Below, piece by piece: positions 6,095 to 61,037 of a stretch of DNA of 64,000 bases. Source of the stretch: Amycolatopsis palatopharyngis (lineage in GTDB: Bacteria > Actinomycetota > Actinomycetes > Mycobacteriales > Pseudonocardiaceae); contig NZ_PQHZ01000006.1 in NCBI RefSeq assembly GCF_003385185.1, positions 62,001 through 126,000 of the forward strand. The letters run 5' to 3'. Position numbers and translations under genes: made by a program. The first letter of the stretch is position 1. Each line of letters starts with the position of its first letter. The notes beneath the pieces are model-generated. The model was not told the DNA's origin, ran no database searches, and saw nothing but the letters and a program-made list of their open reading frames with translations.

Positions 6095-6116
6095 CGCACT
6101 TTCCCGGGAAAGCGCG
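6095..6116. repeat. TTTCCCGGGAAA palindrome, copy 2
   Basis: CGCACTTTCCCGGGAAAGCGCG: 22 bases, one mismatch in the arms, described by its CGCACTTTCCC left arm. Confidence 0.8.
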
Positions 6117-6120
6117 GTTG

Positions 6121-6172
6121 GGGGTAGTTAGCGACGGTGTTGATCTTGCTTGGTGGTACTTGCAGACGCCCC
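6121..6172. repeat. Half copy of the 120-130-bp inverted-end element
   Basis: Contains TTGATCTTGCTTGGTGG and TACTTGCAGACGCCCC, the right arm of the elements at 2481 and 47676, but no left arm. It continues into CATCCCTGGA exactly as the 2481 copy does. Confidence 0.7.
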
Positions 6173-6197
6173 ATCCCTGGAGGTGAGGGGGCTCGGG

Positions 6198-12640: not shown

Positions 12641-12663
12641 CCGTTCGGCGCGGGGTGGGGGTT

Positions 12664-12712
12664 CCCCAATGTGGCATTGGGGACGCTCAAGTTCCCGAAT
12701 GCCACATTGGGG
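12664..12712. repeat. CCCCAATG-type palindrome array, cluster A (2 units)
   Basis: Units CCCCAATGTGGCATTGGGG (12664) and CCCGAATGCCACATTGGGG (12694), start-to-start distance exactly 30. Lies between convergent murB and the SDR gene. Confidence 0.85.
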
Positions 12713-12745
12713 AACTCCCACCCACTCGCACTCGACGCCCGGTGA

Positions 12746-15589: not shown

Positions 15590-16897
15590 ATGACCCTGCC
15601 CTTTCCCCCGGTGCGCACGCCGCGCCGGGTCGCTGTCGTGTCCGTGCACACCTCGCCGCTGGAACAACCGGGCACCGGCGACGCGGGCGGCATGAATGTG
15701 TACATCAGCGAGACGGCCACCGAGATGGCGCGCAGAGGCATCAGTGTCGAGGTCTTCACCAGAGCCACCTCCTCGGACCAGCCGCCGGTCGCCGAACTCG
15801 CGCCCGGGGTGCTGGTCCGGCACATTCCCGCTGGGCCCTACCAGCCGCTGGGCCGCGACGAGCTGCCCGCGCAGCTGTGCGCCTTCACGTCGGGAGTGCT
15901 GCGTGCCGAGGCGTTCCACGAGCCCGGCTACTACGACGTGATCCACTCGCACTACTGGCTGTCCGGGCAGGTGGGCTGGCTGGCGCGGGATCGCTGGGGC
16001 GTGCCGCTCGTGCATACCGCGCACACGCTTGCCAAGGTCAAGAACGCCGCGCTCGCGGAGGGGGACGTTCCCGAGCCGAGGACGCGGGTGATCGGCGAGG
16101 AGCAGGTGGTGGCCGAGGCGGACAGGCTGGTCGCCAACACGCCCGTGGAGGCTCGTGAGCTGGTCGGTTTGTACGACGCCGACCCCACCGCCGTACGCAC
16201 GGTCTCGCCCGGGGTCGATCTGGAGCGGTTCACGCCCGGCTCACAGGTCTTCTCGCGCGCGGCGCTGGGACTGCCGCAGGATGCGGTGGTGCTGGCTTTC
16301 GCGGGCCGGATCCAGCCACTCAAGGCGCCGGACGTGCTGCTGCACGCGGCGGCGAACCTGTTGCGCAGGCAGCCCGAGCTGCGGGAGCGGCTGGTCGTGC
16401 TGATCGTCGGTGGCCCTTCGGGCAGTGGGATGGAGCAGCCGAGGGAGCTGCGCGAGCTGGCTGACTCGCTCGGCATCGCGGGCCAGACCCGGTTCCTGCC
16501 GCCGCAACCGGGCCAGGCGCTCGTGGACGTGTACCGCGCCGCGGACGTGGTAGCCGTACCGAGTTACAACGAGTCGTTCGGCCTGGTCGCACTGGAGGCG
16601 CAGGCGTGCGGCACACCCGTTGTGGCCGCCGAGGTCGGTGGGCTGCCGGTCGCGGTGTCGCACGGCGTTTCCGGCATGCTGGTGCCAGGTCACCGGGCGG
16701 AGGACTGGGCGAACGCGCTGGCCGCTGTCGCCCTGCGCCCCGGGCGGCGCGCGGAGCTCGGAGCCAACGCCGTCCGGCATGCGCGCAGGTTCTCCTGGGA
16801 GCGCACCACTGACGCGCTGGTGGCCACATACACCGAGGCGGCCACGGCGTTCCGCGACGCGGTGGCGCGCGCGTTGCAGGAGGAGGTAGCGGTGTGA
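15590..16897 (+). CDS. mshA: D-inositol-3-phosphate glycosyltransferase
   Basis: 435 residues, GT-B fold family GT4. It transfers GlcNAc from UDP-GlcNAc to 1L-myo-inositol 1-phosphate, the first step of mycothiol synthesis. N-terminal [21 protein letters not shown] (read as separate [17 protein letters not shown] core), [16 protein letters not shown], and the nucleotide-sugar motif [18 protein letters not shown] are diagnostic. SD GAGGAG before ATG. Stop overlaps the YbjN gene start (GTGA), the conserved mshA-ybjN pair of actinobacteria (Rv0486-Rv0487). Confidence 0.96.
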
Positions 16898-17199
16898 GCA
16901 AGCCAGAGCAGCCGGCGGCTGGGGCTGGGACTGAGGGTGCGAGCACCTTGCACGCGGAGCGGAGCGAGGCCGATGGTGGCGGTGTGAGCAAGCCAGAGCA
17001 ACCGGCGGCTGGGGCTGGAACTGAGGATGCGAGCACCTTGCACGCGGAGCGGAGCGAGGCCGATGGTGGCGGTGTGAGCAAGCCAGAGCAGCCGGCGGCT
17101 GGGGCTGGGACTGAGGGTGCGAGCACCTTGCACGCGGAGCGGAGCGAGGCCGATGGTGGCGGTGTGAGCAAGCCAGAGCAACCGGCGGCTGGGGCTGGG
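16894..17199 (+). repeat. 90-bp in-frame tandem repeat, 3.4 copies
   Basis: Copies start at 16894, 16984, 17074 and (36 bp) 17164, period exactly 90. Copies 1 and 3 look identical; copy 2 has a few changes (GAGGAT for GAGGGT, CAACCG for CAGCCG). Each copy includes GTGAGCAAGCC, duplicating the gene start. Confidence 0.95.
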
Positions 17200-20048: not shown

Positions 20049-20963
20049 GTGACCGATCTGGTCGTACGCCCGCTGCGTGCGGGCGAGCAGCACCTCTTCC
20101 ATGCTCTTCCCGAAGCCGCCCGAGTCGGCTTTCCCTTGCCTGGCAAAGACTTCGACACGCTCTTCGCGAAGGGCGAGTATCGTCCCGAGTGGACCTGGAT
20201 CGCGTTGCGCGGCGAGCGGGTCGTGGCCCGCGCTGCCTGGTGGGCGGGCCCTGACGACGCCGAGCCGATAGCGCTGGACTGGTTCGACTTCGGCCACGAC
20301 GTCGAGGCGGGTGTAGCCCTGCTGCGCTCGGCGCCGATCCGCGCGGAGTACTGCCTGGCGCTGCCGACCGGCTGGCAACGGGATCCGGCGCGCGCCGAGG
20401 CCACCCGCGCCCGCATCGCCGTGGCCGAGCAGGCCGGGATGCGCAGGCTGGTCGATCGCCTGAGCTACACCTGGACTCCTGACCGTCCACTGCAGCTCCG
20501 GCCGGGGCGGCTGCGCTTCCGGCCCGAACCCGACGACGACGTGATCTTCGACGTCCTGTGCCGGATACACACCGCCACCCTCGACGTCCACGCACTACTG
20601 GACATCGACCGTGGCGGGCTCGACGCCGCGGCGGAGTCGGAACTGGCGTTCCTGCGCTGGATGCCCTCGCCTCGGCAGTGGTGGCTGCTCGCGCACACTC
20701 CCGATGGCGAGTTGGTGGGAATCACCGCGCCGGGCCGCAACCACTCGGGCGCGGTCGTCGGGATCATCGGCGTCGTGCCGGAGCAGCGGGGCCACGGATA
20801 CGCCTACGACCTGCTGGTGGAGTGCACGCACCGGCTGGTCGAGGCGGGAGAGACGCGAATCGGGGCAGCCACCGACGTGACCAACACCCCGATGTCCGCC
20901 ACCTTCGCCAGAGCCGGCTACCCGATCACCCAGGAACGGACGTACCTGCACCACCCGGCGTGA
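20049..20963 (+). CDS. GNAT family N-acetyltransferase
   Basis: 304 residues. An N-terminal half of uncertain fold (VTDLVVRPLRAGEQHLFHAL) and a C-terminal GNAT domain: VVGIIGVVPEQRGHGYAYDLL contains the acetyl-CoA pyrophosphate loop QRGHGY, then ATDVTNTPMSATFARAGY. Two-domain layout suggests a degenerate first GNAT repeat. Substrate unknown. GTG 20049 has GGAAGGA upstream; a longer frame from 19968 would cover the small ORF region and lacks an SD. Followed seven bases later by repeat cluster B. Confidence 0.82.
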   Translation: MTDLVVRPLRAGEQHLFHALPEAARVGFPLPGKDFDTLFAKGEYRPEWTWIALRGERVVARAAWWAGPDDAEPIALDWFDFGHDVEAGVALLRSAPIRAEYCLALPTGWQRDPARAEATRARIAVAEQAGMRRLVDRLSYTWTPDRPLQLRPGRLRFRPEPDDDVIFDVLCRIHTATLDVHALLDIDRGGLDAAAESELAFLRWMPSPRQWWLLAHTPDGELVGITAPGRNHSGAVVGIIGVVPEQRGHGYAYDLLVECTHRLVEAGETRIGAATDVTNTPMSATFARAGYPITQERTYLHHPA

Positions 20964-20969
20964 GAAGTT

Positions 20970-21048
20970 CCCCAATGTGGCGTTCGGGAACTTGAACGTC
21001 CCCAATGCCACATTGGGGAACTCCAACGTCCCGAATGCCACATTGGGG
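20970..21048. repeat. CCCCAATG-type palindrome array, cluster B (3 units)
   Basis: Units start at 20970 (CCCCAATGTGGCGTTCGGG), 21000 (CCCCAATGCCACATTGGGG) and 21030 (CCCGAATGCCACATTGGGG), exact 30-bp period, between the acetyltransferase and senX3. Confidence 0.88.
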
Positions 21049-21225
21049 AACTTCCATCCCCCGGCGATGGGCTACCCGATCGAATGAAGCGAATTTTGGG
21101 GAAGATCGACGCAGAGCGACAATTGCATGAACAGACACCGACTTGCGGGCAAATATGTAGCCCGTAGGTGTCACGACCGTCACGAGAACGCGGCCAGGAC
21201 TAGGCCAGAGGGCTACCACCGCGCT

Positions 21226-29241: not shown

Positions 29242-29419
29242 CTCGCACTTTCCCGGGAAAGCGCGAGACGAGCGCGCGCCGGCCCTACCCGCGCTTTCCC
29301 GGGAAGCGCGGAGCCTTGCCGCCCCGACCTGCGCCTTGCGCTGCCCGAGGTCGCACTTTCCCGGGAAAGTGCGAGCCGCCGGGGCTGGTCCCTCTCGCAC
29401 TTTCCCGGGAAAGCGCGAG
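29242..29419. repeat. Cluster of four TTTCCCGGGAAA palindromes
   Basis: Copies at 29242-29267, 29291-29309 (one arm shortened, TTTCCCGGGAAG), 29352-29373 (perfect) and 29394-29419, between the thioesterase gene and proC. Each flips GCACTTTCCC/GGGAAAGYGC-type arms. Confidence 0.9.
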
Positions 29420-29454
29420 GGCTGGTGGGCGATGGGCCCGATGGGGGAGGCAGG

Positions 29455-36757: not shown

Positions 36758-38473
36758 GTGACCGCTGACGGGGCGTCTGAGAACAGGGAACCGCGAGGTC
36801 ATGGTGATTCGTGGAACTCGGCCGGCGAAGTCCCGCTATCGACGCGGCAGGGCGTCAGCCAGCAGAACCAGACGGACGCTGTGAGTCAGGGCCCTGGCGG
36901 TTCGATCGCGGACCCGAGTTCGCGGACAAGCTCTGACCGGGCGACCGGACACGTGGGCAACGTTGCCGATCTGCTCGCCGCCACCGCTTCAGCGAGGCCA
37001 GACGCGGCCGCGCTGGTGGACACCGCGACGTCGGTGACGCTCAGCTGGGCGGACGTGGACGCGGCGGTGGATGCACAGGCGCGCGAGCTCAGGGCCGCGG
37101 GACTGTCCCCGGGCGACCGGGTCGTGCTCTGCCTGCCCACCTCGGCGGCGTTCGTGATCGCGCTGTTCGGTGTGCTGCGTGCCGGCGGGGTCGCCGTGCC
37201 GCTCCCGCCGCAGGGCCCAGGCTCGGAGCTGTCCGGCCTGCTCGAGCACAGTGGCGCGGGCCTGCTGATCGGTGCCGATGTCCATGCCGGGGTCGATGCC
37301 GACGACCTTCCCGCCGGCGTGCGGGTGCTGCGGGCGGCCACCGCGGGTGAGCAGCGGCCCGAGCAGGTGGAGCCGGTCGGGGCGGGCGAGGACCTCGCGG
37401 TGCTCTCGTACACCTCCGGAACGACCGGAGCGCCGCGCGGGGTGATGCTGTCGCATCGCGCGCTGCTGGCCAACGTCACCCAGCTCGAACAGCTCCAGGT
37501 CCGGGTGGTCGAGCCCGGCGACCGGGTGCTGATCACCATCCCGATGTTCCACGTCTACGGTCTCGGCCCCGGCCTGCTGGCCGGCACGTCGGCGGGCGCG
37601 ACGCTGGTGCTCGCCGAGCGGTTCGACGTGCACGCCGCGCTGCAGGCCTGCGCGGAGTACCGGGTGACCTCGCTGCTCGGGGTGCCCACGATGTACGTGG
37701 AACTCGCCGCACTGCCCGCGGCCGAACTGGGCGAGGGCCTCGCGACGGTCCGCCTGCTCACCTCGGGCGCCGCCCCGTTGCATCCGAAGGTGCTGGCCGC
37801 GATCCGGGCAGCGACCGGCCTCGGTGTGTTCGAGGGGTACGGGCTGACCGAGACCGCCCCCGTGGTCACCACCACGATGGTCACCGGATACCCGAAGCCG
37901 GGTTCTGTCGGCAGGCCGCTACCCGGGGTCGAGCTGCGGCTCGTGGACAGCGACGGCACCGTGGGCCCGGTACCGCTCGACCCCGCGGACCCGGACGACG
38001 TGTTCGCCGAGGACGACGGGCAGCCGATGGGCACGGGCCTGGTGTCGATCCGTGGGGCCAACCTGTTCTCCGGCTACTGGCCCGACGGCGCGCACGGCCC
38101 GGACGCGGAGGGCTGGTTCCGTACCGGCGACGTGGGCTACCTGGACATCGACGGCGATCTGCACCTGGTGGACCGGGCCAACGATCTGATCATCGTCAAC
38201 GGGTTCAACGTCTTCCCGAACGAGGTGGAGGGCGTCATCAACGCACTTCCCGGGGTGGCGGAGTCGGCGGTGGTCGGCGTCGTCGACGAGCGCAGCGGCG
38301 AGGCCGTCAAGGCCGTGATCGTGCCCGAGCAGGGCGCGGCACTGTCGGAGCAGCAGGTGCTGGACGCGTGCGTGCGGGCACTCGCCGCGTACAAGGTTCC
38401 GCGCACGGTGGAGTTCGCCGATTCGCTGCCGCATTCGGCGACGGGCAAGCTACGGCGGATGAAGCTCAGGTAG
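36758..38473 (+). CDS. Fatty acyl-CoA synthetase / AMP-dependent ligase
   Basis: 571 residues from GTG 36758, ANL superfamily: adenylates a carboxylic acid then forms the CoA ester. Motifs: LSYTSGTTGAPRGVMLSH, FHVYGLGPG, SGAAPLHPKVL, EGYGLTETAPVV, WFRTGDVGYLD, NDLIIVNGFNVFPNEVE and catalytic Lys in HSATGKLRRMK. The conserved protein begins near VGNVADLLAATASARP (GTG 36953, residue 66). The preceding 65 residues coincide with the duplicated 170-bp element and include rare codons (CTA), so 36953 may be the true start; AAAGGGG 7 nt before GTG 36758 favours the longer form. Confidence 0.85.
   Translation: MTADGASENREPRGHGDSWNSAGEVPLSTRQGVSQQNQTDAVSQGPGGSIADPSSRTSSDRATGHVGNVADLLAATASARPDAAALVDTATSVTLSWADVDAAVDAQARELRAAGLSPGDRVVLCLPTSAAFVIALFGVLRAGGVAVPLPPQGPGSELSGLLEHSGAGLLIGADVHAGVDADDLPAGVRVLRAATAGEQRPEQVEPVGAGEDLAVLSYTSGTTGAPRGVMLSHRALLANVTQLEQLQVRVVEPGDRVLITIPMFHVYGLGPGLLAGTSAGATLVLAERFDVHAALQACAEYRVTSLLGVPTMYVELAALPAAELGEGLATVRLLTSGAAPLHPKVLAAIRAATGLGVFEGYGLTETAPVVTTTMVTGYPKPGSVGRPLPGVELRLVDSDGTVGPVPLDPADPDDVFAEDDGQPMGTGLVSIRGANLFSGYWPDGAHGPDAEGWFRTGDVGYLDIDGDLHLVDRANDLIIVNGFNVFPNEVEGVINALPGVAESAVVGVVDERSGEAVKAVIVPEQGAALSEQQVLDACVRALAAYKVPRTVEFADSLPHSATGKLRRMKLR
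36765..36936 (+). repeat. Duplicated ~170-bp element, copy 1
   Basis: Highly similar to 56391-56560. Identical blocks include GTGATTC, TGGAACTCGGCCG, CGAAGTCCCGCTATCGA, CGGCAGGGCGTCA and TTCGATCGCGGACCCGAG. It sits at the 5' end of the acyl-CoA synthetase gene. Confidence 0.9.
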
Positions 38474-46444: not shown

Positions 46445-46500
46445 AAGGGCCACCGTGGCCACCGGCGAGGCACCCCCTCCCAGTGACCACGGTGGCCCTT
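46445..46500 (+). terminator. Hairpin after hemD
   Basis: AAGGGCCACCGTGG and its perfect complement at 46487-46500, 14-bp stem with a 28-base loop. Confidence 0.65.
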
Positions 46501-46517
46501 CCCACGTCCCCGCCCAT

Positions 46518-46626
46518 CGCCAATGCGGCGTTTGGGACGTTGGAGTTCCCCAATGCCACATTGGGGACGTTAGATGTCCCGAATGCCACATTGGGGAACT
46601 CCAAGTTCCCGAATGCCACATTGGGG
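46518..46626. repeat. CCCCAATG-type palindrome array, cluster C (4 units)
   Basis: Units start at 46518 (degenerate, CGCCAATGCGGCGTTTGGG), 46548, 46578 and 46608, exact 30-bp period, between hemD and hemB. The array ends 28 bases before the hemB -10 box. Confidence 0.9.
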
Positions 46627-46653
46627 GCATCACCGCCTCCGCGGCCGCCGGAG

Positions 46654-46659
46654 TACCGT
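46654..46659 (+). promoter_or_regulatory. -10 box of leaderless hemB
   Basis: TACCGT seven bases before GTG 46667. Confidence 0.5.
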
Positions 46660-47641: not shown

Positions 47642-47675
47642 CGCCGGTCACCCCCCAGCCCTCCCGCACCAGCTA

Positions 47676-47806
47676 GGAGTGTCTGCAAGTACGCCCAAGC
47701 AAGATCAACTCCGTCGCTAACTACCACCAAGTGAGATCGAGCCGAGTCAGCTTGGGTGTAGAAAACAGCGAAATGGATCTTGCTTGGGCGTACTTGCAGA
47801 CGCGCC
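47676..47806. repeat. 131-bp element with 31-bp inverted ends
   Basis: Left end GGAGTGTCTGCAAGTACGCC..., right end the near-perfect complement (two or three differences in 31). Same family as 2481-2601, but its interior is different and pairs only weakly. Lies between hemB and a membrane-protein gene. Confidence 0.85.
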
Positions 47807-47873
47807 AACTACGGGGGTGGGGACGGCCGTCAATCGCGGGTCGGTCGACGGCGTTACCCCGGCTCCTCGCCGG

Positions 47874-52143: not shown

Positions 52144-52770
52144 ATGAATACGAGAAGAGCGCGAAAGGCCGGCGCGGCACTGTGTGTGGCGGTGCTGGTA
52201 CTGGCGGGATGCACGTCGGGAGACGACGCCGTGTCCCAGGGCAGCACGTTCGAGTTCGTCTCACCCGGCGGCAAGGTCGACATCTTCTACGACGATCCGG
52301 ACCGGCAGTCGCTGGAAATCACCGGTGAGGACCTGTTCAACGAGGGCCAACAGCTCTCCACGGCGGACTTCCCCGATGACGTGATCGTGATCAACCTGTG
52401 GGGCCAGTGGTGTAACCCCTGCCGGGCCGAGGCGCCGGAGTTGCAGAAGGTCTACGAACAGACCAAGGACGACGGCGTGATGGTTCTGGGGATCGACCTG
52501 CGGGACCCGAACCGGCAGGCCCCGATCGACTTCATGCGCGACCGGGACCTGACCTATCCGTCCATCTACGACCCATCAGGGCGGACCCTGCTACAGCTGT
52601 CCGGATACCCGCGCAACATCGTGCCTTCGACGATCGTGCTGGACCGCCAGCACCGGGTGGCCGCGGTTTTCCTGCGCACGCTGCTGGCGAGCGACCTGCT
52701 GCCGGTGGTCGAGCGCCTCGCCGCCGAGCGCCCCCCAGCCGCGGCGGCGGCGGCGCCCCCGAGCCGCTGA
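52144..52770 (+). CDS. ResA/TlpA-like thiol-disulfide lipoprotein
   Basis: 208 residues. Lipobox LAGC (Cys ~23), thioredoxin-like domain with INLWGQWCNPCRAEAPELQ (CxxC), MVLGIDLRDPN, and cis-Pro in NIVPSTIVLD. Membrane-anchored on the outside; reduces apocytochrome c thiols with electrons from CcdA. C-terminal Ala/Pro tail. First of the cytochrome c system II set resA-ccdA-resB-ccsB. Confidence 0.92.
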   Translation: MNTRRARKAGAALCVAVLVLAGCTSGDDAVSQGSTFEFVSPGGKVDIFYDDPDRQSLEITGEDLFNEGQQLSTADFPDDVIVINLWGQWCNPCRAEAPELQKVYEQTKDDGVMVLGIDLRDPNRQAPIDFMRDRDLTYPSIYDPSGRTLLQLSGYPRNIVPSTIVLDRQHRVAAVFLRTLLASDLLPVVERLAAERPPAAAAAAPPSR

Positions 52771-52790
52771 GCGGTGCCGCGTCGGGAGTT

Positions 52791-52899
52791 CCCCAATGTG
52801 GCATTCGGGACATCTAACGTCCCCAATGTGGCATTCGGGACATCTAACGTCCCCAATGTGGCATTGGGGAACTCCAACTGCCCAAACGCCGCATTGGCG
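52791..52899. repeat. CCCCAATG-type palindrome array, cluster D (4 units)
   Basis: Units start at 52791, 52821, 52851 (CCCCAATGTGGCATTCGGG or ..TTGGGG) and 52881 (degenerate, CCCAAACGCCGCATTGGCG), exact 30-bp period; the first two spacers are identical (ACATCTAACGT). Lies between the resA-like gene and ccdA. Confidence 0.9.
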
Positions 52900-52957
52900 G
52901 CTGTGACCGGGCTCCTGCTCGTGGCCACCCGCAGCGCCTCACGTCGTTCACACTCCT

Positions 52958-53743: not shown

Positions 53744-55353
53744 CAACCACCGAAGCCCCGCCCGCACAGCCGCGCAGGCCCTACCGGCAGACGCCGATAC
53801 GTCGTGCGCTCGCCTTCGTCCGAAACACCTGGCGCGGGCTCATCTCGATGCGCACAGCGCTGATCCTGCTGTTCCTGCTCGCGCTGGCCGCGCTGCCCGG
53901 CGCACTGCTGCCGCAGCGGTCGCTGAACCCACCGAAGACCGAGGAGTACATCGCCGCCTACGGCTGGTGGGGTGAACTGCTGGACCGGCTGCAGTTCTTC
54001 GACGTCTACAGCAGCGTCTGGTTCTCCGCGATCTACCTGCTGCTGATGGTGTCGCTCGTCGGCTGCCTCGCGCCGCGCAGCCGGGACTACGTCCGGTCGA
54101 TGCGGGCGAAGCCGGTACTGACCCCGCGCAACCTGAGCCGGATGCCGCATCACCAACGCGCCGAGGTGGCAGCCGAGCCCGCCGAGGTGCTCGCGGCCAC
54201 CAGCACCCGGCTACGCGGCTGGCGGGTGGCGGAGCGCGAGGAGCCCGACGGCGCGCGCAGCATCAGCGCCGAACGCGGCTACCTGCGCGAGACCGGCAAT
54301 CTGGTGTTCCACTTCGCCATGCTCGGGCTGATCGTCGCGTTCGCACTGGGCAAGATGGTCTCCTACGAGGGTCAGGTCATCGTGCAGGCGGACGGACAAC
54401 CGTTCTGCAACTCCGGCATCCTCAACTACGACTCGTTCAACCCCGGTCTTCAGGTGGACGGCACCCAGTTGAACCCCTTCTGCCTGCGGGTCAACAGCTT
54501 CACCGCCGAGTACACCGAGGCCAACCAGCCAGAGCACTACGAGGCCGACCTCGAGTACCAGTCCGGGAAGGACCTGCAGACCGGCACCTGGCGGCCGTAC
54601 ACCCTGGAGGTCAACGAACCGCTGCGTACCGCGGGGGATCGGGTCTACCTGCTCGGTCACGGGTTCTCCCCGACCTTCACCGTCACCTTCCCCGACGGCA
54701 GTGTGCGGACCCAGACGATCCAGTGGCGCCCGATGAACCAGACCACCCTGCTGTCCGAGGGGGCGACCAAGTTCGACCCGCCCGGCGTGACCGACCCCGT
54801 GCAGCGCCGCGAGCAGCAGTTGGCGATCACCGGGCTGTTCGCCCCGACCTCGCTGTTGCACGGCAATGTGCTCAGTTCGGCCGGCCCCCAGCTCGACGAT
54901 CCCGCCGTCGCGGTGGACGTGATGAAGGGCGATCTCGGCCTCGACTCCGGAAAGGCACAGTCGATCTTCGAGATCGACCAGGGCATGGTGGACCAGGGCA
55001 GACTGGAACGGGTGGCCAGGGAGAACCTGGAGCTCGGTGAGCGGATCACCCTCGACGACGGCACGACCGTCAGCTTCGACGGGGTGCAGCGGTGGGTCTC
55101 GCTGCAGGTCTCGCACGACCCCACCCAGCTCTGGGTGCTCGGGTTCGCCGTCGCGATGCTGCTGGGCCTCGCCGGTTCCCTGCTGGTCAAGCGCCGCAGG
55201 CTGTGGGTGCGCGTGACCCCTGCGGTGGGTGCGGACGGTCAGCGACTTACCGTTGTGGACATCGGCGGTCTGGCCAGGACTGACCAGGCCGGGTACGGCG
55301 AAGAGTTCAACCGGATCGCAGCCGGACTGCTGCGCGAGACAAGGAAACACTGA
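53740..55353 (+). CDS. resB: Cytochrome c biogenesis protein ResB
   Basis: 537 residues. Membrane helices at ~40-60 (MRTALILLFLLALAALPGALLPQ), ~95-112 (FSAIYLLLMVSLVGCLAPRS), ~190-207 and ~463-485, with a large external domain between the last two (~210-460). Together with CcsB it brings heme to the external face and attaches it to apocytochrome c. One-base overlap with ccsB (TGATG). Confidence 0.95.
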   Translation: MTTTEAPPAQPRRPYRQTPIRRALAFVRNTWRGLISMRTALILLFLLALAALPGALLPQRSLNPPKTEEYIAAYGWWGELLDRLQFFDVYSSVWFSAIYLLLMVSLVGCLAPRSRDYVRSMRAKPVLTPRNLSRMPHHQRAEVAAEPAEVLAATSTRLRGWRVAEREEPDGARSISAERGYLRETGNLVFHFAMLGLIVAFALGKMVSYEGQVIVQADGQPFCNSGILNYDSFNPGLQVDGTQLNPFCLRVNSFTAEYTEANQPEHYEADLEYQSGKDLQTGTWRPYTLEVNEPLRTAGDRVYLLGHGFSPTFTVTFPDGSVRTQTIQWRPMNQTTLLSEGATKFDPPGVTDPVQRREQQLAITGLFAPTSLLHGNVLSSAGPQLDDPAVAVDVMKGDLGLDSGKAQSIFEIDQGMVDQGRLERVARENLELGERITLDDGTTVSFDGVQRWVSLQVSHDPTQLWVLGFAVAMLLGLAGSLLVKRRRLWVRVTPAVGADGQRLTVVDIGGLARTDQAGYGEEFNRIAAGLLRETRKH

Positions 55354-56345
55354 TGCCGGTCAACGAGACACTGTCGCAGTACAGCGACTGGTCCTACACC
55401 ACCGCGGTCGTCGTGTACGTGGTCGCGATGATCTTCTTCCTGGTCGAGCAGTCGTTCGGACATAAGGGTGCGCAGGCTGCCCAGCGGACCCGGGAGCGTG
55501 CCGCCGAACTCGTCGGAGCGGGCGGACCGTCCAGCACTGTCGAGCCTCCTGCCGAGCACACCGGGACGACCTCCGCCAGGCCCGAACGCAACCGCGCCGA
55601 GCGGTTCGGCCGAATGGGTGTCGCCTTGACCGTGCTGGCGGTCTTGCTCCACCTGAGCGCGCTGGTGCTGCGCGGTCTGTCGGCCGGCCGTGTGCCGTGG
55701 GGCAATATGTACGAGTACACGATGGCGATCTGCCTGGTCGCGGTCGTCACCTGGCTCGTCGTGCTACGCCGGTCGCCGCTGCGGCATCTATCGGCGTTCG
55801 TGCTGTTGCCGGTCGTGATTCTGATGTTCATCGGCGGCACGATGCTCTACAGCGAATCCGCTCCAGTGCAGCCCGCCCTGCAGTCGTACTGGTTGGTCAT
55901 CCACGTTTCGGCCGCTGCCGCGTCCTCCGGGGTGTTCCTCGTGCCCGGTGTGGCGAGCCTGCTTTACCTGGTTCGGTCACGGCACGAGAAGAACCCGCAG
56001 AAGTTCGCGCGGTTCGGTGCCCGGTTGCCCGCGCTCGACGTGCTCGACCGGGTCGCATACCGCACGACGGTCTTCGCGTTCCCGGTGTTCACCTTCGGTG
56101 TCCTGTGTGGTGCCGTGTGGGCGGAGGCCGCGTGGGGCCGGTTCTGGGGCTGGGACCCCAAGGAGACCGTCGCCTTCATCGCCTGGGTGGTCTACGCCGC
56201 CTACCTGCACTCGCGGGCGACGGCGGGCTGGCGGGGCAACCGCGCCGCCGTGATCAACGTGATCGGCTTCGCGATGACCGTCTTCAACCTGTTCTTCATC
56301 AACCTCGTCACGACGGGATTGCATTCCTACGCCGGGGTGGGGTAA
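55353..56345 (+). CDS. ccsB: Cytochrome c biogenesis protein CcsB/CcsA
   Basis: 330 residues, eight membrane helices. Heme-handling WWD-type loop WGWDPKETVAFIAWVVYAAYLH and the flanking conserved His residues (YWLVIHVSAAAA, YLHSRA) are present; WGNMYEYTM precedes. The ~50-residue loop after helix 1 is variable. Last gene of the cytochrome c set. Confidence 0.95.
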   Translation: MPVNETLSQYSDWSYTTAVVVYVVAMIFFLVEQSFGHKGAQAAQRTRERAAELVGAGGPSSTVEPPAEHTGTTSARPERNRAERFGRMGVALTVLAVLLHLSALVLRGLSAGRVPWGNMYEYTMAICLVAVVTWLVVLRRSPLRHLSAFVLLPVVILMFIGGTMLYSESAPVQPALQSYWLVIHVSAAAASSGVFLVPGVASLLYLVRSRHEKNPQKFARFGARLPALDVLDRVAYRTTVFAFPVFTFGVLCGAVWAEAAWGRFWGWDPKETVAFIAWVVYAAYLHSRATAGWRGNRAAVINVIGFAMTVFNLFFINLVTTGLHSYAGVG

Positions 56346-56355
56346 CGCACCTGCG

Positions 56356-56385
56356 TTCGACCCCCGGCCTTCCTGCGACTACCGT
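56356..56385 (+). promoter_or_regulatory. Promoter before the duplicated element and MinD-like gene
   Basis: TTCGAC (56356-56361), 18 bases, TACCGT (56380-56385). Predicted transcription start ~56391, the first base of the 170-bp element. Confidence 0.5.
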
Positions 56386-56390
56386 CGCTA

Positions 56391-56560
56391 CTGACAGGGC
56401 GTCTGGAGTGCGGATTCCGAGGTCACAGTGATTCCTGGAACTCGGCCGACGAAGTCCCGCTATCGAGGCGGCAGGGCGTCACGCGGCAGAACTGGACAGT
56501 GCCTGGGTGCCAGAGCCCTGGGGATTCGATCGCGGACCCGAGTTCTCAGACAGGCCCTGA
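56391..56560 (+). repeat. Duplicated ~170-bp element, copy 2
   Basis: Near-colinear with 36765-36936 (lengths 170 and 172). Non-coding here in the sense that no ATG/GTG/TTG start opens the frame conserved with copy 1, although that frame stays open and ends in a TGA overlapping the GTG of the next gene. Confidence 0.9.
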
Positions 56561-56611: not shown

Positions 56612-57988
56612 GTGACCGGACCCAACGACGAGCCGGCTGACGGCTATACCGGGGACCAGGAAGGGCTGGCCGCCGAGACGCCCACGCAGTGGCACAACCC
56701 GCAGACGGATCAGGCCGAGGGTGCCGCGGCGTTCTCTGAGGAGAGCACCGACTCGACTCCGCACCCCGCCGCACCGAACTCCTCGGCTCCGGGTCAGCAC
56801 CAGGCGCCGGCAAACCCGAGCACCTCGGGGCCGTACCAGGTGCCACCACCTTCTTCCGACCCAGCGCAGCCCACCTACTACACCGAGGCCACCCCCTCCG
56901 GTCCGCAGCAGCAGCCCGTCTATCACCACGGCTACGACCCGAACCTGCCTCCGCTGCACCCACCGCAGTACCAGCAGCAGCCGCCGAACCCGGGTCAGTA
57001 CCCCGGCCCGCCACCGCCCCTGCCGGGACAGCAACAGGGCGGCAGGCACGCCCTGGCCGGGGGCAGCGACCTGACCTCCGCGCACCTGGTCAAGCGGATG
57101 AAGCGGCGGCCGCAGACGGGCTGGCGCAAGGCCCTCTTCGTCGGTACGGGTGGGCTGATCAATCCTGGTGAGAGTCCAGCGGACCGGCGCAAGCGGGAGC
57201 TGATCTCACGCGTCAACCAGCCGCTGCGTGGGTGCTACAAGATCGCCATGCTCAGCCTCAAGGGCGGGGTGGGCAAGACGACCACCACGACCACACTCGG
57301 CTCCACCTTCGCTTCGCTGCGGGGGGACCGGGTGGTGGCTGTCGACGCCAACCCCGACCGGGGGACGCTGTCACAGAAGATCCCGATCGAGACCACGGCC
57401 ACCGTGCGGCACCTGCTGCGGGACGCGGACAAGATCACTCGATACAGCGACGTCCGCTCCTACACCTCGCAGGGCGCGAGCAGGCTGGAGATCCTCGCCA
57501 GCGAACAGGACCCCGCGGTGTCGGAAGCGTTCTCCGAGGACGACTACCGGCGCACGGTCAACCTGCTGGAGCACTTCTACAACATCGTGCTCACCGACTG
57601 CGGGACCGGCCTGATGCACTCAGCGATGAAGGGCGTGCTCGACGTCGCCGACGCGCTCGTGATCGTGTCTTCGGGTTCCGTCGACGGCGCCCGCAGCGCC
57701 TCTGCGACCCTCGACTGGCTCGACGCGCATGGTTACGGCGACCTGGTGAAACGCTCCGTCGCGGTGATCAACTCGGTGCGGCCGAAGGGTGGCTCCGTCG
57801 ATCTCGAGAAGCTGTCCGCACACTTCGGCGCCCGGACGCGGGGAGTGTGCAAGATTCCGTTTGATCCGCACCTGGAAGAGGGCGCGGAGATCGAACTGGA
57901 CCGCCTGGACACCGGCACGAGACTGGCGCTGCTGGACCTGGCGGCGACGGTGGCCGACGGATTCCCGAACGACCGCACCGTCCGCTGA
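56612..57988 (+). CDS. MinD/ParA-like ATPase with Pro-rich N-terminus (Rv0530-like)
   Basis: 458 residues. Residues 1-~150 are Pro/Gln/Ser-rich and disordered; a basic bridge (LVKRMKRRPQTGWRKALF) follows, then a ParA/MinD P-loop domain with deviant Walker A LKGGVGKTTTT at ~215, VVAVDANPDRGTLSQKI (Walker A'), and VLTDCGTGLMHSAM (Walker B). Similar in layout to ESX-associated EspI-type ATPases. The role in a cytochrome c/menaquinone neighbourhood is unknown. GTG 56612 with AGGAGG 12 nt upstream. Confidence 0.82.
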   Translation: MTGPNDEPADGYTGDQEGLAAETPTQWHNPQTDQAEGAAAFSEESTDSTPHPAAPNSSAPGQHQAPANPSTSGPYQVPPPSSDPAQPTYYTEATPSGPQQQPVYHHGYDPNLPPLHPPQYQQQPPNPGQYPGPPPPLPGQQQGGRHALAGGSDLTSAHLVKRMKRRPQTGWRKALFVGTGGLINPGESPADRRKRELISRVNQPLRGCYKIAMLSLKGGVGKTTTTTTLGSTFASLRGDRVVAVDANPDRGTLSQKIPIETTATVRHLLRDADKITRYSDVRSYTSQGASRLEILASEQDPAVSEAFSEDDYRRTVNLLEHFYNIVLTDCGTGLMHSAMKGVLDVADALVIVSSGSVDGARSASATLDWLDAHGYGDLVKRSVAVINSVRPKGGSVDLEKLSAHFGARTRGVCKIPFDPHLEEGAEIELDRLDTGTRLALLDLAATVADGFPNDRTVR

Positions 57989-58207: not shown

Positions 58208-58302
58208 GCCCGCTCCTTCCGTCGTGGAATGCGTGCCTGTCACTTCCGAGGTTAACCCTTTTGTCAGGATATGGGGGCACAGGCCTGCCACGATTGTCTT
58301 GG

Positions 58303-58642
58303 GCGCGCTTCGCGGCGCCTCACGGGCACGCGAGTGAGCGCGGTTTTGGCGTTACAACCGTGGCGTTGGCTCACTCGCTGTGTTGGCCCGGCGCGCTCCG
58401 CGGCGCCTCACAGTGACGCGAGTGAGCGCAGCTTTTGCATTACAACCGTGGTGTTGGCTCACTCGCTGTGTTGGCCCGGCGCGCTCCGCGGCGCCTCACA
58501 GTGACGCGAGTGAGCACAGCTTTTGCGTTACAACCGTGGCGTTGGCTCACTCGCTGTGTTGGCCCGGCGCGCTCCGCGGCGCCTCACAGTGACGCGAGTG
58601 AGCGCAGCTTTTGCATTACAACCGTGGTGTTGGCTCACTCGC
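58303..58642. repeat. 88-bp tandem array, four copies, running into bldC
   Basis: Copies start at 58303 (diverged), 58391, 58479 and 58567 (last one ends ~58642), period exactly 88. Each copy contains GCGAGTGAGC ... GCTCACTCGC, a 10-bp inverted repeat. The last copy includes the final nine codons and stop of bldC (58616-58642). Fills most of the 408-bp gap between the small membrane protein and bldC. Confidence 0.95.
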
Positions 58643-60953: not shown

Positions 60954-61037
60954 CGCACTTTCCCGGGAAAGTGCGAGGTCGGAAAACTCCAGCCGCAGGT
61001 CGTGGGCGTGCTCGTCGGCACTTTCCCGGGAAAGTGC
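60954..61037. repeat. Two TTTCCCGGGAAA palindromes between convergent genes
   Basis: Perfect copies at 60954-60975 and 61018-61037, 14 bases after the PLP gene stop and touching the menA stop codon (TAG at 61037-61039). Probably act as terminators for both genes. Confidence 0.9.

Follow-up and report, generated by a model that had tools for sequence, protein, structure and literature searches.

The window, a stretch of 64,000 nucleotides (C88:62001-126000 of genome G000, an assembly of 7.01 Mb in 131 contigs with a listed contamination of 6.49%), holds two copies of an element of ~170 bp, each 5' of a gene on the same strand (Table 1). The preliminary description had reported this duplication, and it is real and not a chance likeness: the copies are colinear, with 83% identity over 143 ungapped bases (36794-36936 against 56418-56560), and copy 1, used as a query against its own genome, retrieved copy 2 at E 3.2e-38. 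CTGA stands at both ends of each copy, at exactly the bounds given in that description. Copy 1 sits between divergent genes, copy 2 begins 45 bp past the stop of the upstream gene (55353-56345), and neither is placed exactly at a stop codon. The gene starts at 36953 and 56612 are predictions from a purpose-built gene finder based on codon bias; because both fall 3' of the elements, we consider both copies intergenic. Copy 1 had been proposed either to precede the acyl-CoA synthetase-like gene or to form its 5' end, and given the predicted start only the former stands. The promoter-like motif pointed out 5' of copy 2 is indeed there.

Table 1. Features of the two element copies and of the genes that follow them, in window coordinates.
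Feature	Position	Strand	Basis
Element copy 1, flanking CTGA repeats included	36765..36936	+	Sequence and repeat search
Left end of copy 1, CGGGGCGTCTGAGAAC	36769..36784	+	Agrees with the IS terminal repeat GAGGGCGTCTGAGAAC at 14/16 bases
Structured core of copy 1, three-way junction P1/P2/P3	36809..36924	+	Covariance model R2, 83.3 bits
Right CTGA of copy 1	36933..36936	+	Direct repeat of 36765-36768
Acyl-CoA synthetase-like gene, 3' of copy 1	36953..38473	+	Start by codon bias; named by eye
Promoter-like motif TTCGAC-N18-TACCGT, 5' of copy 2	56356..56385	+	Consensus resemblance only; kept in relative G011
Element copy 2, flanking CTGA repeats included	56391..56560	+	Sequence and repeat search
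Structured core of copy 2	56433..56548	+	Covariance model R2, 89.1 bits
Right CTGA of copy 2	56557..56560	+	Pairs with CTGA 56391-56394
MinD-like ATPase gene, 3' of copy 2	56612..57988	+	Start by codon bias; named by eye

An open frame that reaches from 36722 across copy 1 and on into the gene might be taken for what is left of a conserved N-terminal coding region. Loop lengths differ by +1 or +2 between copies and shift the frame, so the peptide reading fails, as had already been argued on other grounds, and codon bias starts the gene only after the element. We thus ruled out a coding explanation, whose chance of being right we consider negligible.

The window copies are intergenic members of a dispersed family. 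With copy 1 as query we obtained 43 matches in G000 at E <= 10, spread over many contigs and both strands; roughly 16-20 are long, and we put the element at ~20 copies in this genome. A search of this and related genomes had been suggested as a check, and it found further intergenic copies in G000, in other Amycolatopsis and in other genera. The covariance model of the core (R2, see below) matched 17 of 40 Amycolatopsis genomes at E <= 1e-6, with 9-45 matches each and 401 in total, of which a few may be opposite-strand matches of the same copy; the remaining 23 genomes had no match at this threshold. A family-wide search with R2 at E <= 1e-5 and stricter filters matched 14/150 genomes, eight of them outside Amycolatopsis and belonging to seven genera. 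An exact 24-base pattern of the core was found in 32 stretches of the genome collection, all in Amycolatopsis records. The element is short (~170 bp), non-coding (its frame is not conserved) and multi-copy, as is a MITE, and with this length and no frame kept across copies it does not encode a transposase as an autonomous IS5-family element would.

To describe where copies lie among genes we used a sample of 140 (19 from G000, 24 from G011, 73 from other Amycolatopsis and 24 from other genera), in which same-site loci were merged among the other Amycolatopsis and sites shared by G000 and G011 were left unmerged. Relative to the element, both flanking genes pointed in its own direction in 92 cases (++), with 17 --, 17 +- and 14 -+, and among copies adjacent to a stop codon 81 were sense, 13 antisense and five both (two-sided binomial, p 1.2e-13 for ++ against -- and 3.6e-13 for stop-adjacent sense against antisense). 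Most often a copy lay right behind the upstream stop codon of a co-directional gene pair. Insertion is not strictly oriented, since antisense copies exist. The downstream genes, named by eye, were unrelated (acyl-CoA synthetase-like, MinD-like, SecA-like, acyl-CoA dehydrogenase-like, JAMM-like, DoxX-like, NuoH and IspF), without the consistent class of gene that would be expected behind a riboswitch.

The core of the element is predicted to fold as a three-way junction made of an outer stem (P1), a small hairpin that often has a GAA loop (P2) and a long stem (P3). Model R2 describes it with 119 positions and 31 pairs and was built from 29 sequences (alignment A6), 21 of which were selected with an exact pattern for the 5' P3 arm, making that arm constant in them by choice; one row (L133) is 40 bases too long. 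In the window R2 gave two strong matches, and the next best, at 23 bits, was copy 1 read on its opposite strand. We fetched 100 high-scoring loci out of the 401 matches; these loci yielded 109 matches (seven on the opposite strand and two duplicated by overlapping loci). Among these, 98.3% of cells were paired, against 94.0% in shuffles and 31-53% in slid versions of the structure, 20/31 core pairs had changed on both sides, and 0/500 shuffles reached the observed covariation values. In 24 loci from other genera (26 matches) 92.0% of cells were paired and 12/31 pairs had changed on both sides; shuffles reached the observed value in 3/500 cases for both-side changes, in 12/500 for further pair types and in none for the other measures. 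The alignments behind these numbers (A7-A9) were fitted to the model and therefore favour its structure. Within the window subfamily alone the arms barely vary and covariation is weak (1/34 pairs), while adding diverged subfamilies brought out compensatory changes in the outer stem. Single-sequence folding gave weak signals (z -1.84, -0.46 and -1.19).

The strandedness of the fold can be read from wobble pairs: a position able to pair as G.U in one strand's RNA is A.C in the other's. Once opposite-strand rows were dropped, G.U outnumbered A.C in helix cells by 122 to 7 in one alignment (102/109 rows kept; 67 of the 122 come from a single pair) and by 41 to 8 in another (51/55 rows, four opposite-strand rows dropped). 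In the 35 copies of the window subfamily (the part of the 51 rows that belongs to it, the other 16 being dropped), transitions that make G.U and those that make A.C stood at 30:9 in helices and at 55:56 in unpaired columns. The excess of G.U in helices points to the RNA of the sense strand as the one that folds. Taken together, covariation and the strand test support a conserved RNA fold. The preliminary description recognised no known RNA family, and this holds against Rfam 15: we found no match in the window at gathering scores, and none overlapping the element in scans of five loci (E up to 5) and six loci (E up to 1).

Comparison of sites in relatives, made on aligned genome sequences, shows that the element is mobile. 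For ten sites of G000 we searched the joined flanks in G011, G021 and G001; one (L005) had no match in G011, and the other nine were aligned between the two genomes. The element was absent from G011 at five of them, of which L006, L010 and L012 were clean empty sites and L002 and L004 had ~10 differing junction bases. At L003 and L013 the G011 sequence differs and contains no clear element, at L011 there is another insert with similar ends, and at the site of copy 2, before the MinD-like gene, there is a short remnant (L112), also with similar ends. The flanks of copy 2 were matched in one piece in G021 (266 bases for 258, 71%), that is, as an empty site. Two inserts of G011 (L118 and the L112 just named) thus have similar ends with a different or deleted interior, at sites that are filled in G000. 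Five sites could be recognised as occupied in both genomes, and a single one of them (L041; its G000 partner is given as L008/L078) is intact in both. The other four have a broken partner: the G011 partner of copy 1 (L059) bears an internal deletion, L009 is paired with a partial copy (L058), L044 corresponds to a remnant in G000 (L089), and copy 2 to L112. Wider samples of two junctions gave the same picture of filled and empty sites. Before an SMC-like gene, which we take to be jetB-jetC-like, 6/30 genomes were filled, 23 empty and one had another insert (these are the 30 with the best-matching gene among 70 that have it, and the junction was chosen by its neighbouring gene, not by element score). 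At the nuoG-nuoH junction (identified by eye for NuoH and by assumption for nuoG) two of 24 genomes were filled, 21 were empty and one (G002) was not comparable. As a separate observation, the different insert at the SMC-like junction (L225, in G034) lies where six other genomes carry the element.

The ends of the window subfamily consist of repeats such as GAGAGCGTCTGAGAAC, with GTGCCTGTCTGAGAAC at the other end read inward and CTGA outside. The pattern GWGNNYGTCTGAGAAC matched 7/60 genomes, all Amycolatopsis, and a reversed control pattern gave four single matches. A candidate partner is an IS of G012 (L163:1501-2517), 1,017 bp long, which has GAGGGCGTCTGAGAAC at each end as an inverted pair and a TTA target duplication, of TNA type. 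It encodes a frame of 294 residues that matches Pfam DUF4096/DDE_Tnp_1 and NCBIfam NF033580 transpos_IS5_3 (228.9 bits). In the copies compared, element ends agree with this repeat at 12-15 of 16 bases and not exactly, the IS being from another species; the inner GTCTGAGAAC of the repeat is identical in the better element copies. The window subfamily may have ends akin to those of an Amycolatopsis IS5-family IS. Unlike the IS, the element has no transposase, and the 1,017-bp IS sequence shows no such core by eye. No close relative of the G012 transposase was found in G000 or G011 at E <= 1e-30 (eight genomes searched); other IS5 members are present in both. For instance, an IS5-family IS in two reading frames (L336 in G011:C21; L337/L342 in G000:C120) is present three times in G011 and once in G000, and its 20-bp ends, CTAGGGCGTGTCTGACAATG, were seen at both ends of L336 and at the left end only of the G000 copy. 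By eye, the left end of the element is variable and its core constant: other subfamilies have the same core with GAGCCTGTTGG / CAACAGACAC ends or with no visible IS-type ends, and such ends were not seen in the subfamilies with GCGCGC outer stems.

Direct repeats at the flanks also vary. Many copies show, by eye, a duplication of CTGA (as in the window) or of TNA. In a comparison of flanks 21/104 copies had direct repeats scoring >= 9, 15 of these at constant offsets, with lengths of 9-17 bp (longest 17 bp); random pairings of flanks gave 95% at 8, 99% at 10 and a maximum of 13. At nuoG-nuoH, ~30 bp around the overlapping GTGA stop/start are doubled. We had considered a strict 3-bp TNA duplication and dropped it on finding these 9-17 bp lengths, and we claim no single duplication length, repeats ranging from 4 to ~30 bp.

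The reading that we favour, and judge probable, is that of a non-autonomous, MITE-kind element with a conserved structured RNA for its cargo. An IS5-type transposase would move the element into TNA/CTNAG targets. A TGA stop codon is such a target, and its duplication would spare the upstream gene. After insertion the operon transcript would include the element as a 3'-UTR or intercistronic structure, and sense copies would be kept over antisense ones if the folded RNA were harmless or mildly useful in the sense strand, as an example by stabilising the mRNA or having it processed between two genes. Against this reading stand the varied lengths of the direct repeats, which are unlike the work of one DDE transposase, the position of the window copies away from exact stop codons, the subfamilies devoid of IS-type ends, the inexact end match to an IS of another species, whose transposase has no close relative in G000 or G011, the scant covariation inside the window subfamily and the unconstrained helices of the one site intact in both G000 and G011. 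The element might also be nothing but a selfish MITE whose fold serves transposition or a DNA cruciform, without any role in mRNA, the sense bias being due to purging of antisense copies; this has a substantial chance of being right, if short of even. The decay of four of the five sites shared by G000 and G011 speaks for it, as does the fifth, L041, where helices show no constraint (3/60 helix and 3/56 unpaired positions differ, and all three helix changes break pairs). A cruciform, however, is symmetric between strands, yet helices, unlike unpaired columns, have more G.U than A.C. At the SMC-like junction the evidence cuts both ways. Pairwise differences among the six filled genomes are scarcer in helices (60/930) than in unpaired positions (197/850) or in third codon positions of the downstream gene (1131/7500), which argues against a purely selfish element, but among the helix changes that did occur, pair-breaking ones exceed pair-keeping ones (46 against 14). 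Differences between the two genomes filled at nuoG-nuoH amount to 2/62 in helix and 13/56 in unpaired positions, with 24/400 for third codon positions of nuoH. Same-site clusters gave 37/1476 for helix and 323/1342 for unpaired positions; their loci were chosen by model score, and we do not use them as main evidence.

Mobility could instead be mediated by the RNA itself, the folded molecule being inserted in sense by retroposition or reverse splicing with variable duplications, and IS-type ends being acquired in some subfamilies only. Direct repeats of varying length, up to those at the stop/start overlap, a variable left end around a constant core, the sense bias of copies and one core common to subfamilies with different ends would all fit, but the likeness of element ends to an IS5-family terminal repeat and the 13 antisense copies at stop codons do not, and we find this route doubtful. 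A further reading would have a three-way-junction RNA of Pseudonocardiaceae whose fold is needed for spreading or tolerance: it would enter gene ends in sense, at stop codons and stop/start overlaps, with variable duplications that keep both genes intact, and would then be selected as an intercistronic RNA. As a whole we deem this chain rather unlikely. The preliminary description had offered a structured, riboswitch-like leader RNA or a mobile repeat with a regulatory role as main options. Empty sites bear out the mobile part, and covariation and the strand test the RNA fold; the riboswitch-like part fares worse. A host leader RNA sensing something for the downstream gene would have a conserved fold, which the model-fitted alignments display, and would be located before genes, where copy 2 even has its promoter-like motif. 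Its unrelated downstream genes and the decay of several copies, among them the G011 partners, make a riboswitch unlikely, and the common position after an upstream stop within co-directional pairs and the emptiness of most orthologous junctions examined count against it too, so that we hold it to be highly improbable. 

Several known repeats offer parallels. Correia elements and ERIC come from proteobacteria. Like our element they are intergenic repeats, compared here by description only, and they are said to cause transcript cleavage when transcribed (PMC3049150). The same source describes the BOX, RUP and SPRITE repeats of Streptococcus pneumoniae as short, dispersed between genes, co-transcribed and predicted to form RNA structure, mentions a similarity of BOX ends to an IS, and gives the three as over-represented between convergent genes (PMC3049150). 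In contrast, and again by description only, our element lies mostly in sense, among co-directional genes and at stop codons. The repeats bcr1-bcr18, reported from the Bacillus cereus group, are MITE-like and often found in UTRs or intergenic regions of operons, and some of these families have a conserved secondary structure (PMC3446304). By description, our element may be viewed as an analogue of the BOX and bcr repeats, structured and intergenic as they can be, and we do not claim membership of either. We found no published report of it in the open-licence literature. It would add a structured RNA family with no Rfam 15 match in the scans run, one that would be spreading through actinomycete operons while leaving flanking genes intact. 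Filled and empty versions of the nuoG-nuoH and SMC-like junctions would constitute a natural experiment on how a mobile RNA structure affects operon expression and on why sense copies persist.

The window contains other repeats as well. A palindromic repeat with a 30-bp period, like TTCCCCAATGTGGCATTGGGGAACTCC, occurs at 12655-12718, 20939-21080, 46487-46658 and 52760-52905, and another MITE-like inverted-repeat element, with arms of ~56 bp that are 79-86% complementary (TGGAGCGTCTGCAAGTACCCCCAAGCAAGATC...), at 2477-2610, 6111-6181 and 47672-47815. Tandem repeats of three copies each were seen at 58302-58642 and 16885-17198, with spacings of 88 and 90 bp. Finally, a palindrome like CGCACTTTCCCGGGAAAGTGCGAGGTCG is repeated at 29322-29452 and 60954-61005, and two weak R2 matches (19.1 and 17.8 bits, at 29327-29454) overlap the first of these.
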